Origin: a filamentous cyanobacterium ESFC-1
GTDB taxonomy: Bacteria > Cyanobacteriota > Cyanobacteriia > Cyanobacteriales > Spirulinaceae
Assembly (NCBI GenBank): GCA_000380225.1
Contig: KB904821.1
Span: forward strand, 1,295,053 to 1,359,052
Length of the DNA stretch: 64,000 nucleotides
Direction: 5' to 3'
Part shown: one piece after another, positions 2,009-56,687 of the stretch
How positions within the stretch are numbered: position 1 is the first letter of the stretch
How the letters are laid out: each line of letters opens with the position of its first letter
The notes under the pieces: generated by a model
Databases searched by the model: none
What the model saw: only the letters and a program-made list of their open reading frames with translations
Told to the model about the DNA's origin: nothing
Position numbers and translations under genes: made by a program

Positions 2009-3745
2009 TTAATTTTGCTGGAGATATATTTCGGCTTGGCGGGGTTGTCCCCAGATAATCTGCTCCCGTTGATAGATGGCGACTCCAGGCTTTGCACCTT
2101 TGGGTTTGTAGACGTATTTGGGTTCGGTGTAGACGGCGGGGACGCGATCGCTCTGACGACTACGACTGTAATAGGTGGCGAAATCGGCAGCGAATTGGAG
2201 ATCGGCTTGGTCGGGAACTGCACCGGGTTCTAGACGCATCAGAACGTGGGATCCGGCGACTTCTTGGGCGTGAAACCAGAGGTCGTAATCCCCAGCCTGG
2301 CGGAAGGTAAGCTGGTCGTTTTGGCGGTTGTTGCGTCCGACGAGGAGTTCAAAGCCGGAGGGGGTTTTGTAGGAGTGGGGTTGGGCTTCGGGGGCGTTGT
2401 CGGGGCGGGTTTTGGTGCGTCCGCCGTCGAGATAGTTTTCTTGGATGAGTTCTTCGCGAATTTCTTGGAGGGTTTGCAAGTCCTCTGGGTTGCGATAATC
2501 GTCGATTTGGCTGAGGGCGGTTTCGATTTGTTCGAGGTATTGTTGTTCGGCTTGCACTTCGGCAAGGAGGGGTTGGACGGCGTTACGGGCGCGTTTGAGC
2601 TTTTGGTGTTGTTTATAGAGGGCTTGGGCGTTTTGGACGGCGTTTTTTTCGGGATTGAGGGCAATTTGCGTGTCTTCTCCGGTGGTAAAGTCGGGGAGGG
2701 TGATGGTTTTCATGCCGGGTTGCCATTGGTGCAAATGGGCCATGAGTAAATCCCCTAGGGCGCGGTAGGTGTCGGCTTCGTCGGATTGGGCGAGACGAGT
2801 TTTAAAGGTTTCGGCTTTTTGGTTGAGCTTTTTTTGCAAACTTTTGACTTTTTGCTCTAACTGATGGCGGAGTTGCTTATATGTCTGTTGGTTGAGTTGG
2901 TTGGTGTAGTAGTGGTTGAGGAGGGTTTGGGTGTTTTTTGCAGGAGCGATCGCGCCCCATCCCAAAACCGTGTATCCTGTTTTTGTCCAAGCGGGGGTAA
3001 AGGTTTCATTTTCCAGGCAATGCAGCCATTCTTGCCAGCGCTCAAACAATGCGTCCCAATCTGCCGGAGACAGGGTTTCGGTGGATTGTTGAGCGTCTAA
3101 ACCCGCTTTTTCGGCCATTGATGCAATTAAGACGGGACTGACACCGCGATAACTTTGCAAGAGTTGTTTTTTGAGCTTACCGGGGACGAGACTGACACGC
3201 TCGACAAAGCGATCGCGACTTTCGGTTAAACTCGGCGCATTGCCTAAAAGGGGCGGGGGCGGTTCATAGGGTTGTCCGGTTTGGACGGGACGCATACTCG
3301 ATTTTTGGGAACTGACTTGATGAGCGCAAGTCACAATTTGTTGATGGGCATCGGTGAGGATTAAATTGCTATATTTGCCCATAATTTCGGCGTAGAGATG
3401 CCATTGCGGGGGGTCGCCGGGTCGTTTGGCAAATTGGAAGTTTAGCACCCGTTCCCAGGGCGCGATCGCGACAATCCCGCTCAAGGCAAAGCCGTTGAGT
3501 TGATGGCGTAGCTGGTCACTAAAGGTAAAGGTATCTGGGGTGCGCGGGGGCCGGTCGCCAACACAAATCCGCGCCGCTTGGGGATGCCAAGATATACTCA
3601 ACCAGTCGCGTTTGTCAAGGGTACGCAGGGCGATCGCCAGGGTGTGACGGTCTCGCTGATAAAATTGCTCAACTCGGGCCGGAAGCCAACTCTGACGTAG
3701 TTCAGCGCAAGCCGCAGTAAGGGTGGTAAAGTCAACAGGTTGCAT
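2009..3745 (-). CDS. NFACT-family protein (Rqc2/RqcH-type)
   Basis: Family members bind 60S/50S subunits carrying stalled nascent chains; bacterial RqcH adds alanine tails. Older annotations call it a fibronectin-binding protein. The N-terminal NFACT-N domain holds the characteristic MGKYSNLILTD segment. A helical and coiled-coil middle follows, and the C-terminal NFACT-R domain contains DLWFHAQEVAGSHV and VYKPKGAKPGVAIYQRE. At 578 residues it is full length. The ATG at 3745 (MQPVDFTTLTA) is preferred over an in-frame TTG 15 nt upstream. It is divergent from remA-gmk, with 258 bp between. The role in rescue of stalled ribosomes is inferred from the family. Confidence 0.88.
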   Translation of the reverse strand: MQPVDFTTLTAACAELRQSWLPARVEQFYQRDRHTLAIALRTLDKRDWLSISWHPQAARICVGDRPPRTPDTFTFSDQLRHQLNGFALSGIVAIAPWERVLNFQFAKRPGDPPQWHLYAEIMGKYSNLILTDAHQQIVTCAHQVSSQKSSMRPVQTGQPYEPPPPLLGNAPSLTESRDRFVERVSLVPGKLKKQLLQSYRGVSPVLIASMAEKAGLDAQQSTETLSPADWDALFERWQEWLHCLENETFTPAWTKTGYTVLGWGAIAPAKNTQTLLNHYYTNQLNQQTYKQLRHQLEQKVKSLQKKLNQKAETFKTRLAQSDEADTYRALGDLLMAHLHQWQPGMKTITLPDFTTGEDTQIALNPEKNAVQNAQALYKQHQKLKRARNAVQPLLAEVQAEQQYLEQIETALSQIDDYRNPEDLQTLQEIREELIQENYLDGGRTKTRPDNAPEAQPHSYKTPSGFELLVGRNNRQNDQLTFRQAGDYDLWFHAQEVAGSHVLMRLEPGAVPDQADLQFAADFATYYSRSRQSDRVPAVYTEPKYVYKPKGAKPGVAIYQREQIIWGQPRQAEIYLQQN

Positions 3746-53438: not shown

Positions 53439-54662
53439 CTAATCCATAAGTTCTGTTGCTGCGGTTATCATATCCGCAGCAATTTCTTTTAGGTCTTCCC
53501 GGTTGTCGAGATAGGCTTTGAGGGCATCGAGGGGGTCGAGGCTGTTTCCTACGCCTAATTCGGGTAAGCGGGGACGAGCCAGTTGGCTGACTAATTCGGG
53601 GCGAATGGTGTAGGTGTGGGCGGCTTGGAGGGCTTCTTGGAGGGCGGGAAGGGCGATGATTTCGATTTGTTCGGAGCGCAGTTTGTAAATTAAACGCACC
53701 ACTGCGTCTTGGATATCGTATTTCGCGATCGCGCTTTCGATGTCTTCTTGGGGGGTATCCGAAGCGGAGACATCAACGGTAATGGTACGAAAGGGGCGGA
53801 CTTGCAGGGGACAAAATTGCCAATCGGCTTGATTTTTTGCCAGTTCGATTAAAACATAGCCTTTATCTTCTTTTTCTTCGCTAAAATCGACTCGCTCGAT
53901 GCTACCGGGGTAAATGATGGGGGGATTGTTTTGGGGATTGAGGTTTTGGTGTTTGTGGACATGACCGAGGGCGACATAATCGATTTCCGGGCGGATTAGC
54001 AGGGAAACGGGGACGGTAAAGCCTTTCCCCACGGCTAAAAAGCGCTCTGCCCCAAAGTTGGCGCGGTCTGCCATGAGATGAGCTAACAAGACGGTGGGAA
54101 TATCGGGGTCGAGCCGCCGGATTTCGCCTTCGAGGGCGGGTTGCAGGCGTTGAATGAGTAAATCGTTGACTTCGGCGAGGGATAGTCCTTCGGTCTCAGG
54201 AAGGGTGAGCAGGTTGGACAGGGAACGAGTTAGCCAAGGTAAGGTAATGATTTGTACGTCGCCGTTGGGGGTGGTGATGCGGTGAGTGGCGATCGCGTCT
54301 CCGACAATAAAACCGGGTACAGCCAGGGTACGGTAAATACACAAACTCGCGCCCCCAGTGCCTTGGGCGTGTTGGTCGTGGTTACCAACGAGTAATACGG
54401 TGGGAATATTAGCATCGGCTAAACGGCGAAAAGCGGCGGCAAACTGTTCTTGAATATAAGGGGGTGGGGTGGCATCGGGAAAAGCATCTCCCCCGAATAA
54501 TACCAGGTCTACGGGTTCGTCTAGGGCGCGATCGATGCAGATGTTCAGGGTTTTGATAAAGTCTTCGAGGCGGGTGTTGAGGCGGGTTTCGGGGTTGATG
54601 CGGCCATGGGAGAAGCCGCTACCGAGATGAATGTCGGATAAGTGTAATATTTTTAGGGTCAT
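53439..54662 (-). CDS. sbcD: Exonuclease SbcCD subunit D-type nuclease
   Basis: 407 residues of the Mre11/SbcD calcineurin-like phosphoesterase family. Metal-binding motifs: LHLSDIHLGSG, GGDAFPD, VGNHDQH, LLAHLM and GHVHKHQ. A capping domain and helical tail follow. It acts with the SbcC ATPase in double-strand-break and hairpin processing, but no sbcC gene is adjacent. The start is the ATG at 54662; a short TTGGTTG-type STRR fragment lies about 20 bp upstream. Confidence 0.9.
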   Translation of the reverse strand: MTLKILHLSDIHLGSGFSHGRINPETRLNTRLEDFIKTLNICIDRALDEPVDLVLFGGDAFPDATPPPYIQEQFAAAFRRLADANIPTVLLVGNHDQHAQGTGGASLCIYRTLAVPGFIVGDAIATHRITTPNGDVQIITLPWLTRSLSNLLTLPETEGLSLAEVNDLLIQRLQPALEGEIRRLDPDIPTVLLAHLMADRANFGAERFLAVGKGFTVPVSLLIRPEIDYVALGHVHKHQNLNPQNNPPIIYPGSIERVDFSEEKEDKGYVLIELAKNQADWQFCPLQVRPFRTITVDVSASDTPQEDIESAIAKYDIQDAVVRLIYKLRSEQIEIIALPALQEALQAAHTYTIRPELVSQLARPRLPELGVGNSLDPLDALKAYLDNREDLKEIAADMITAATELMD

Positions 54663-54866
54663 GTTTTCAGCATTTTGAGGGGAATGTTGGTTCTTGGTTG
54701 TTGGCTAAAGGGCGATCGCGAAACAACAAAATCAGGGAATGGCTCGCACCCCCTGGTTTTAGAATATGATGTTTTCGCCATGTCTCAACTGAATTGGCAA
54801 CCAGCGAGAGAAATTTGAGTGACTCCACGCCAGCTTGACTCAATTCAGTTTTAAGAGAAGATTAAT

Positions 54867-55568
54867 CTAATGAGGTAACAAGATGGGTTCGAGATTTTCC
54901 TTGGGGGTTAGGGGTTCATCGCCAATTTCGGAGTAACCGAGGTCGTGGAGGGGATGATAAATCATGTCGTGTTCGTAGGTGTAAGCCCAACTTTCGGTAC
55001 GACTCCAGTTGACGAGGGGATTAATCTGCAAGCGTCCTTGCTCGTCGTATTCAAACACGGGTAAATAGGAGTGATGGCCGTCGTGGTCTTTTTTGCGTCG
55101 TTGTCCGGTAATCCACGCGATCGCTTCACTCTCTTCTAAGCCCCGTGCTAAAGGCTCAATTTCGGTAAGTTGATGGTATTTTTGAAGGTCTTTCTGCCAC
55201 AGTTGAGCGCCGTATTGAGTCGCAAACTCTTTGTTGGTTTTTGCCTTCAAGGGTTTGTAGGTTCGTAGATCGAGTTTATACAACTCGCGAGCGTAACTTA
55301 CAAAGTCGAGTGTTTCTTGGAAATGGTGCAGCGTATCAAGAAACAAAATCGGAATGCGGGGTGCAGGCTTCAACTCGCGATACAGAAGATCGGTAATAAC
55401 CATATCGTCGATGTTGAAAAACGCACTTGTCTGCACCAAGCCAGTCGCGGGCAGATTCACCCCACACCAAGCGAGAATTTCTTTCGGGTAAGCTTTACTA
55501 AACTGGCGATTCAGCTTGTCCAGATTGAGGTGTGAAACATGAATCGGCGGTAGGGTGGATTGGGTCAT
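54867..55568 (-). CDS. CysH-family (PAPS/APS reductase) protein lacking the catalytic tail
   Basis: 233 residues, clearly homologous to cyanobacterial PAPS reductase over its length: ILAWCGVNLP, VQTSAFFNIDDMVITDLLYREL, ILFLDTLHHFQETLDFV and IEPLARGLEESEAIAWITG. Two diagnostic features are missing. The RRDQ-type phosphosulfate motif reads QRRKKDHDGHHSY. The protein ends GDEPLTPKENLEPILLPH, without the ECG(I/L)H catalytic cysteine and without Fe-S CxxC cysteines. Only one Cys remains, near residue 35. The downstream minus-strand sequence shows no ECGIH in any frame, so a simple frameshift is unlikely. Reductase activity is doubtful; it may be a repurposed paralogue or a decaying gene. Confidence 0.82.
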   Translation of the reverse strand: MTQSTLPPIHVSHLNLDKLNRQFSKAYPKEILAWCGVNLPATGLVQTSAFFNIDDMVITDLLYRELKPAPRIPILFLDTLHHFQETLDFVSYARELYKLDLRTYKPLKAKTNKEFATQYGAQLWQKDLQKYHQLTEIEPLARGLEESEAIAWITGQRRKKDHDGHHSYLPVFEYDEQGRLQINPLVNWSRTESWAYTYEHDMIYHPLHDLGYSEIGDEPLTPKENLEPILLPH

Positions 55569-55611
55569 AATGATTACTTTCTACGCTGATTGCTGGTTAG
55601 ACAGATGGGCA

Positions 55612-55800
55612 TTTCCATTGCTAAATCAAAGATTATAGCTGGAGATTCTTGCTTCTTTTCCTCTTAAACTGGGCCGTCTCACCAATCAAACGGCCTCAGC
55701 CAGAACGAATCCACAAGCATTTTTATTTTACTTCTACGAGCTGCCCGACCGCAGAAGGGTTTAAAGTTTTATGGGTTTGTGTTGACCCGTGATTGTCAAC
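55612..55800 (-). mobile_element. Second omega-RNA-like relic, no tnpB
   Basis: Read on the minus strand it contains CGGTCGGGCAG (55741-55751), AAAAATGCTTGTGG, a GAGGCCGT...GACGGCC stem and GAAGCAAGAATCTCC (55641-55655) followed by a partly degraded stem. These follow the same order as 42685, 42700 and 42776 in the relic at 42633-42817. The 5' side has GTTGAC...GTCAAC inverted repeats. It occupies the upstream region of the cysH-like gene. Confidence 0.5.
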
Positions 55801-56110: not shown

Positions 56111-56629
56111 TTAAACTTTTGATTCGAGCAGTTTGAGGTATTCTGTATTCACGCCAGAATCGCGGGGGAGGGCAACTTTACCCGTGCGGGCAATTTCCCG
56201 AATACCAAATTTATTGAGCATCTGGACAATCGCTACCATTTTACCCGGATCGCCGACGACTTCGATTGTCAGGGTTTCTTCAGAAATATCGACAATTCGC
56301 GCTCGAAATACTTGAGCGAGTTCAATGACTTCGGCTCGATTAGAGGCGGTGGCGTTAATTTTGAGCAGCATTAATTCTCGCTCGACACAAGGAACCTGGG
56401 TAATGTCTTGTACTTTGAGAACATTGACTAATTTGTAGAGTTGTTTGATCAGTTGCTCGATTGTACCGTCGTCTCCGGGAACCACCATGGTAATGCGGGA
56501 AATACCGACTTGTTCGGCGGGGCCAACAGCGAGGCTTTCGATATTGAAGCCACGACGAGCAAACAAGCTGGCAATGCGAGTCAAAACGCCTGCTTCGTCT
56601 TCAACTAAAACCGAGATCGTATGTTTCAT
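56111..56629 (-). CDS. ilvN: Acetolactate synthase small (regulatory) subunit
   Basis: 172 residues from ATG at 56629 ([20 protein letters not shown]). An N-terminal ACT domain with [12 protein letters not shown] and a C-terminal small-subunit domain are present. It confers valine feedback on acetohydroxyacid synthase in branched-chain amino acid synthesis. ilvB is not nearby, as usual in cyanobacteria. Its upstream region contains an IscB/IsrB-like relic. Confidence 0.96.
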
Positions 56630-56687
56630 CAAAAAGTCTCCAAGATACCCCCACAAGAGCGCAACAGGTGGGGGAGGGATAGAAGCG

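Follow-up and report, generated by a model that had tools for sequence, protein, structure and literature searches.

The window, a 64,000-nucleotide stretch of the genome of the filamentous cyanobacterium ESFC-1, contains on its minus strand (54867..55568) a gene for a CysH protein of the PAPS reductase fold that lacks the C-terminal tail with the catalytic cysteine. The open reading frame is 233 residues long, with an ATG start and a clean stop, and belongs to a CysH type here called subfamily A. Judged from alignments and gene neighbourhood, the loss of tail and substrate loop in the window gene is derived and recurrent. We consider it somewhat probable that the gene encodes a retired PAPS reductase, now a pseudoenzyme that is retained for a role other than reduction. 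Taken over all relatives, this reading fits best; slow decay competes strongly with it, particularly where the copy in the window is concerned.

Tail, substrate loop and fold of the window protein

The protein matches the superfamily profile PF01507 (PAPS_reduct) with an E-value of 1.1e-39 and possesses the domain and fold of the superfamily. The equivalog profile TIGR02057 gives 217.2 bits against a cut-off of 254.2 (37 bits under); it is passed by an intact relative (325.5) and by the second CysH of the genome (305.4), and four tail-altered relatives score 209.4-226.3. TIGR00434 (149.4 against 165.1) and TIGR02055 (114 against 235.3) are not reached either. The broader NF002537 is missed by just 0.4 bits (153.6 against 154), and one tail-less relative (L091) lies above its cut-off.

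Intact relatives run on to ERAGRWR...ECGIH where the window protein ends with residues 222-233 (54870..54905, minus strand); this tail is absent here, including the cysteine of the (K/R)ECG(L/I)H motif. PMC2275785 describes this C-terminal cysteine motif as the common active centre. Residues 156-167 (55068..55103, minus strand) read QRRKKDHDGHHS where intact relatives possess the RRDQ loop, and retain the residues aligned to Gly161 and two arginines. The lysine of the KIEP motif is replaced by glutamate, and C35 is the sole cysteine of the protein. Two one-residue insertions, A41 and F50, are gaps in the other 173 of the 174 aligned sequences; the second (F50/F51, 55416..55421, minus strand) adjoins the phosphate-binding loop (TSAFFNIDD). 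Apart from the inserted residue, the stretches DTLHHF and TSAF, taken to be the adenosine side of the site, are kept. A scan of the minus-strand frames from 54401 to 55800 shows no ECGIH-like, RRDQ/RRNQ or ERAGR motif, and the alignment of the intact relative L003 to this region stops at residue 217 of L003, which rules out a simple frameshift. Alignment, profiles and frame scan all bear out the sequence-only reading of the gene as a CysH homologue without the ECGIH tail and with a replaced RRDQ-type motif.

The loss is unevenly distributed. At least 97% invariance in the 152 intact sequences is found at 76 positions, of which 13 lie in the tail, 8 in the pocket (K134 and 153-162, chosen by the residue roles assumed below) and 55 in the rest of the protein. 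At these positions the window protein lacks 13 of 13 in the tail and is changed at 4 of 8 in the pocket and 7 of 55 elsewhere. Eight sequences of the group described below as clade 1 (all but G304) give 76 changed cells of 104 in the tail, 40 of 64 in the pocket and 51 of 440 in the rest. The rest of the invariant core is thus changed in 12-13% of its cells, against about 1% in intact sequences, where the low value follows by construction. The positions lost from the window protein align to K144, R171, R242, R245, C256 and H259 of the P. aeruginosa APS reductase, and G161 is kept; these seven residues, for which only the alignment positions were computed, we take to be phosphosulfate contacts. 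As the sulfate-attacking thiol and side chains binding the sulfate are gone, the protein is almost certainly unable to reduce PAPS or APS.

An AlphaFold2 model from a 69-row alignment has a mean pLDDT of 92.9. Its best solved match is the PAPS reductase 7rge of Candida auris (Z 26.5, rmsd 2.2 over 201 residues). PAPS reductases of the CysH/Met16 type (yeast 2oq2, Z 25.4, besides 7rge) share the fold along most of its length, are 36% identical to it where aligned, and have in common with it the motifs DTLHHF and TSAF and the NPL...W core; unlike these, the window protein possesses neither the Cys/His tail nor the tail arginine pair, and differs in the RRDQ loop and the KIEP lysine. The Fe-S APS reductase of P. 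aeruginosa (2goy, corresponding to class C below) is likewise similar in fold (Z 23.2), but its cluster cysteines (CC and a second pair) and its tail are lacking here. PF01507 proteins without a CysH tail, such as DndC-type proteins, employ the PAPS-reductase domain outside sulfate reduction; unlike them, the window protein is a descendant of the cyanobacterial reductase, encoded at a locus upstream of sbcD that it has in common with many intact relatives. Pseudoenzymes beside an active paralogue have lost catalytic residues and kept fold and purifying selection; the window protein resembles them in the first two respects, and in the third less certainly than the pairs of relatives apparently with a common loss. 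A cyanobacterial CysH pseudoenzyme was not found in the literature searched, most subscription papers being beyond reach; the one paper found that combines pseudoenzyme and PAPS reductase, PMC11528492, concerns an ochrophyte protist, to judge by its title and opening.

CysH types in cyanobacteria and recurrence of the loss

Three CysH types occur in the sampled cyanobacteria: A, to which the window gene belongs, B, which is of E. coli type, and C, marked by the CC pair known from Fe-S APS reductases. Subfamily A is the sole CysH type found in 125 of 163 genomes, with an intact tail in 123 of those 125, and for this reason intact A is taken to be a working PAPS reductase. The 163 genomes are those with an A sequence read; twelve further genomes with a subfamily-A match stand outside the count. 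Left out as too short were a broken copy of 154 residues (L156) in G325, which also possesses a class C CysH, and the split gene L094 of G179; G308 was left out as its protein duplicates the one encoded at a named-contig locus. Two named-contig loci (L032, L033) are among the 174 sequences and not in the genome table. Identical proteins were counted once, which hides two identical A copies of G322 (genus g41) on different contigs. L155 (its frame reads on) and L084 and L086 (small changes in the RRDQ loop, tail kept) were counted as intact. In G179, A is split into two frames, possibly by assembly error, and no other CysH was found in that genome. Eleven genomes possess two different subfamily-A copies (L084, L086, L089, L085 and similar), none with an altered tail.

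The window genome possesses one other CysH that was found. It is of class B, with an ECGLH tail and 34% identity to the window protein, and it is the second, canonical cysH for which the sequence-only reading had advised a search. If an altered tail is defined as any loss of ECG(I/L/M)H, which takes in eight genomes with the cysteine kept and the histidine lost, another CysH type is present in 20 of 22 genomes with an altered A tail versus 18 of 141 with an intact one (Fisher p 2.8e-13, uncorrected for relatedness; the second CysH of G170 was assigned to class B by score alone). The two altered-tail genomes without another CysH, G304 and G635, are assemblies 75% and 85% complete. Since intact A stands beside another CysH in 18 genomes, redundancy permits the loss and does not force it.

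The catalytic cysteine is absent from 14 of the 174 A sequences. Besides the window genome (G000), these are G391 and G368 of the same family, G298, G131, G304 and, in a different order, eight members of a single family (G060, G599, G610, G612, G621, G622, G634, G635). The FastTree topology demands at least ten losses of the cysteine; one ancient loss behind every Cys-less copy is not supported. An open frame of at least 223 residues is kept in 13 of the 14. The cysteine is kept and the histidine lost in G297, G312, G326 and five genomes of genus g41. The g41 copies (L080, L082, L151, L152, L153) keep RRDQ and the cysteine, end in ECGIR in place of ECGIH, occur together with class B and possibly represent altered rather than dead enzymes. 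In genus g129 (L113, L115, L114) the RRDQ loop is lost altogether and the C-terminal cysteine kept (ECGIY in two, PCIY in G312).

Clade 1 comprises G000, G391, G368, G298, G131, G304, G312, G326 and G297. With branch supports recomputed from bipartitions, it forms a clade on the full alignment (0.737) and not on core columns alone, where the g41 group nests inside; clade 1 and g41 together form a clade on both alignments (0.922; 92.2/71). Long-branch attraction may shape details of the tree. G000, G391 and G368 are not a clade in either CysH tree; the sbcD tree pairs G000 with G391 (0.867). Residues rare among intact copies are shared within clade 1: S189 in 7 of 9 sequences versus 3 of 152 intact ones, T191 in 7 of 9 (likewise rare in the 152) and Y198 in 8 of 9 versus 4 of 152. 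Either constraint or shared descent would explain this. D201 is common to them too, yet means little, as it is present in 28 of 152 intact sequences and in every one of the eight altered copies from the other order.

The locus upstream of sbcD

Downstream of the window gene lies a gene for an SbcD-type exonuclease (53439..54662, minus strand; TIGR00619, 250.2 bits against a cut-off of 77.65). The upstream gene is ilvN, acetolactate synthase small subunit (56111..56656, minus strand; NF008864, 223.9 bits, above cut-off), which adjoins the A gene in G391 and G368 too. On the same strand and at most 1.3 kb downstream of A, an SbcD-type gene accompanies 8 of the 9 clade-1 copies and, among intact A loci, 44 of 94 (three of the 94 with less than 600 bases of room); it does so for one of the eight altered copies from the other order and for none of the five g41 loci. 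With so many clade-1 and intact loci beside sbcD, the window gene is best regarded as a resident gene at its old place, the linkage being older than the loss. Relatives with an intact ECGIH at this locus had been named in the sequence-only reading as grounds for giving up its case; such relatives exist, the 44 intact genes upstream of sbcD, and they show that the loss is derived, not false. The linkage of subfamily-A cysH and sbcD is common in the sampled cyanobacteria and unexplained.

A horizontal or phage origin of the window gene is rejected, the locus being common to many intact relatives. Plasmids searched at 1e-40 gave no match for the window protein, and a phage collection gave three records at 29-31% identity.

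Three of the 13 genomes of the window's family yielded an A gene, each lacking the cysteine; of the other ten, nine have class B. Nine A-less family genomes with an sbcD locus were examined for a remnant of A beside sbcD; none was recognisable. G385 (L163) possesses a class B cysH directly upstream of sbcD (2244-3455), the sole case among 28 class B loci, as if class B were a newcomer in a former A slot. In the sbcD tree, the eight clade-1 genomes with adjacent sbcD form a group with G363 and with the G385 sbcD beside class B (0.997), and not by themselves. In G363 (L072), where neither class B nor C was found, an intact A lies a short way upstream of sbcD. The sbcD of G363 falls with the clade-1 genomes but its CysH does not, so that one tree or one gene history is odd.

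Selection and competing explanations

Values of dN/dS were obtained from pairwise codon models, in which pairs are not independent. Intact pairs have a median of 0.061 (61 pairs, maximum 0.13) and of 0.086 in 60 non-f22 pairs (maximum 0.19), sampled randomly from a limited range of difference at third positions. In each pair apparently with a common loss, omega = 1 is rejected (LRT 19.8 to 210.9, dS up to 1.6). The cleanest cases are G634/G635 (dN/dS 0.225; clade 0.998), which end near one point at 223 and 226 residues, and G621/G622 (0.058; clade 0.889), both without the cysteine and with a common insertion; from these common features we infer a loss older than either split. G297/G326 has 0.135 (LRT 19.8 and 26.5 in two estimates) and G312 0.214-0.226 against these two; the common loss of the three comprises the RRDQ loop and the tail histidine, not the cysteine. 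For the window genome and G391 the value is 0.202 (LRT 60.5), with a loss that is maybe not older than the split. The window's group as a whole, with 0.135-0.227, reaches about two to three times the intact-pair medians. Because G000, G391 and G368 form no clade, constraint on the window gene itself is less certain, and its value of 0.2 could be a mix of constrained and unconstrained time.

The sequence-only reading had proposed a changed function rather than random decay. This holds in part. Residues are lost chiefly from the tail and the phosphosulfate pocket with the core mostly kept, such loss recurs in relatives, sister pairs apparently with a common loss are under purifying selection, and the genome possesses a second, canonical CysH; against the proposal stand the raised dN/dS of the window's group and the failure to find A in 10 of 13 family genomes.

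As a mechanism for the retired and retained reductase, the resident PAPS reductase (A) would have gone out of use in a lineage possessing a class B CysH as well, and the second CysH would have arrived or taken over before the loss. Less certainly, the protein would have been kept for a non-reductase property already present in the intact enzyme, most likely adenosine-nucleotide binding by the kept adenosine half, or contact by a kept surface. Several findings speak against this explanation: dN/dS in the window's group is raised as relaxation would give, although single intact pairs reach 0.13 and 0.19; A is dispensable in the window's family, no A gene being found in ten of its genomes; even outside tail and pocket, 12-13% of the invariant cells are changed; and 18 genomes keep an intact A alongside another CysH. 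A wider proposal is tentative and on balance doubtful, namely that subfamily-A CysH has an old, selected second job other than reduction, perhaps adenosine-nucleotide sensing or one tied to SbcD, and sheds its catalytic half repeatedly once another reductase covers sulfur assimilation. If a retained function is real, a core enzyme of sulfur assimilation would be bifunctional in cyanobacteria, and the roughly ten Cys-loss events would be natural separation-of-function alleles marking the residues for the second job. In any case, PAPS reductase would be the wrong name for these proteins, and counts of cysH would overstate sulfate-reducing capacity.

Slow decay of a redundant gene is quite possible, though we would not call it probable. 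Here the second CysH would carry the flux, the reductase-specific residues would go first and deletion would follow later. The raised dN/dS of clade 1 agrees with this, as do the absence of A from the genes found in most family genomes, with no remnant at the nine sbcD loci, and the broken copies elsewhere, namely the 154-residue frame of G325 and a second-copy fragment of A in G087 (C46:12635-12913) with two stops. Decay accounts poorly for open frames in 13 of 14 Cys-less copies, for the rejection of neutrality, at dN/dS values of 0.06-0.23 and dS up to 1.6, in pairs apparently with a common loss, for an uneven loss that largely spares the core, and for the residues shared within clade 1 and rare in intact copies.

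An improbable alternative is a dead subunit, a non-catalytic partner that tunes a working CysH. It would suit the well-kept fold of the AlphaFold2 model and the presence of another CysH in nearly all altered-tail genomes, but depending on the genome the companion is either class B or the Fe-S class C, so that one interface would have to serve two enzymes, and the window protein is only distantly similar to its own class B companion, at the 34% identity given above. Still less credible is that the protein remains a reductase or sulfotransfer enzyme that uses different chemistry or acts on a different substrate. Its fold has matches among ATP-pyrophosphatase-type enzymes that catalyse other reactions (FAD synthase, the ATP sulfurylase heterodimer, TilS), but C35 is the one cysteine left, the positions aligned to the sulfate-contacting lysine, arginines and histidine are gone, and the phosphate loop has an insertion. 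A sequencing or assembly error behind the loss of the tail, which the sequence-only reading had named as a possible refutation, is rejected as practically excluded by the frame scan, by comparable losses in relatives from other genomes and by an assembly of 3 contigs that is 100% complete.
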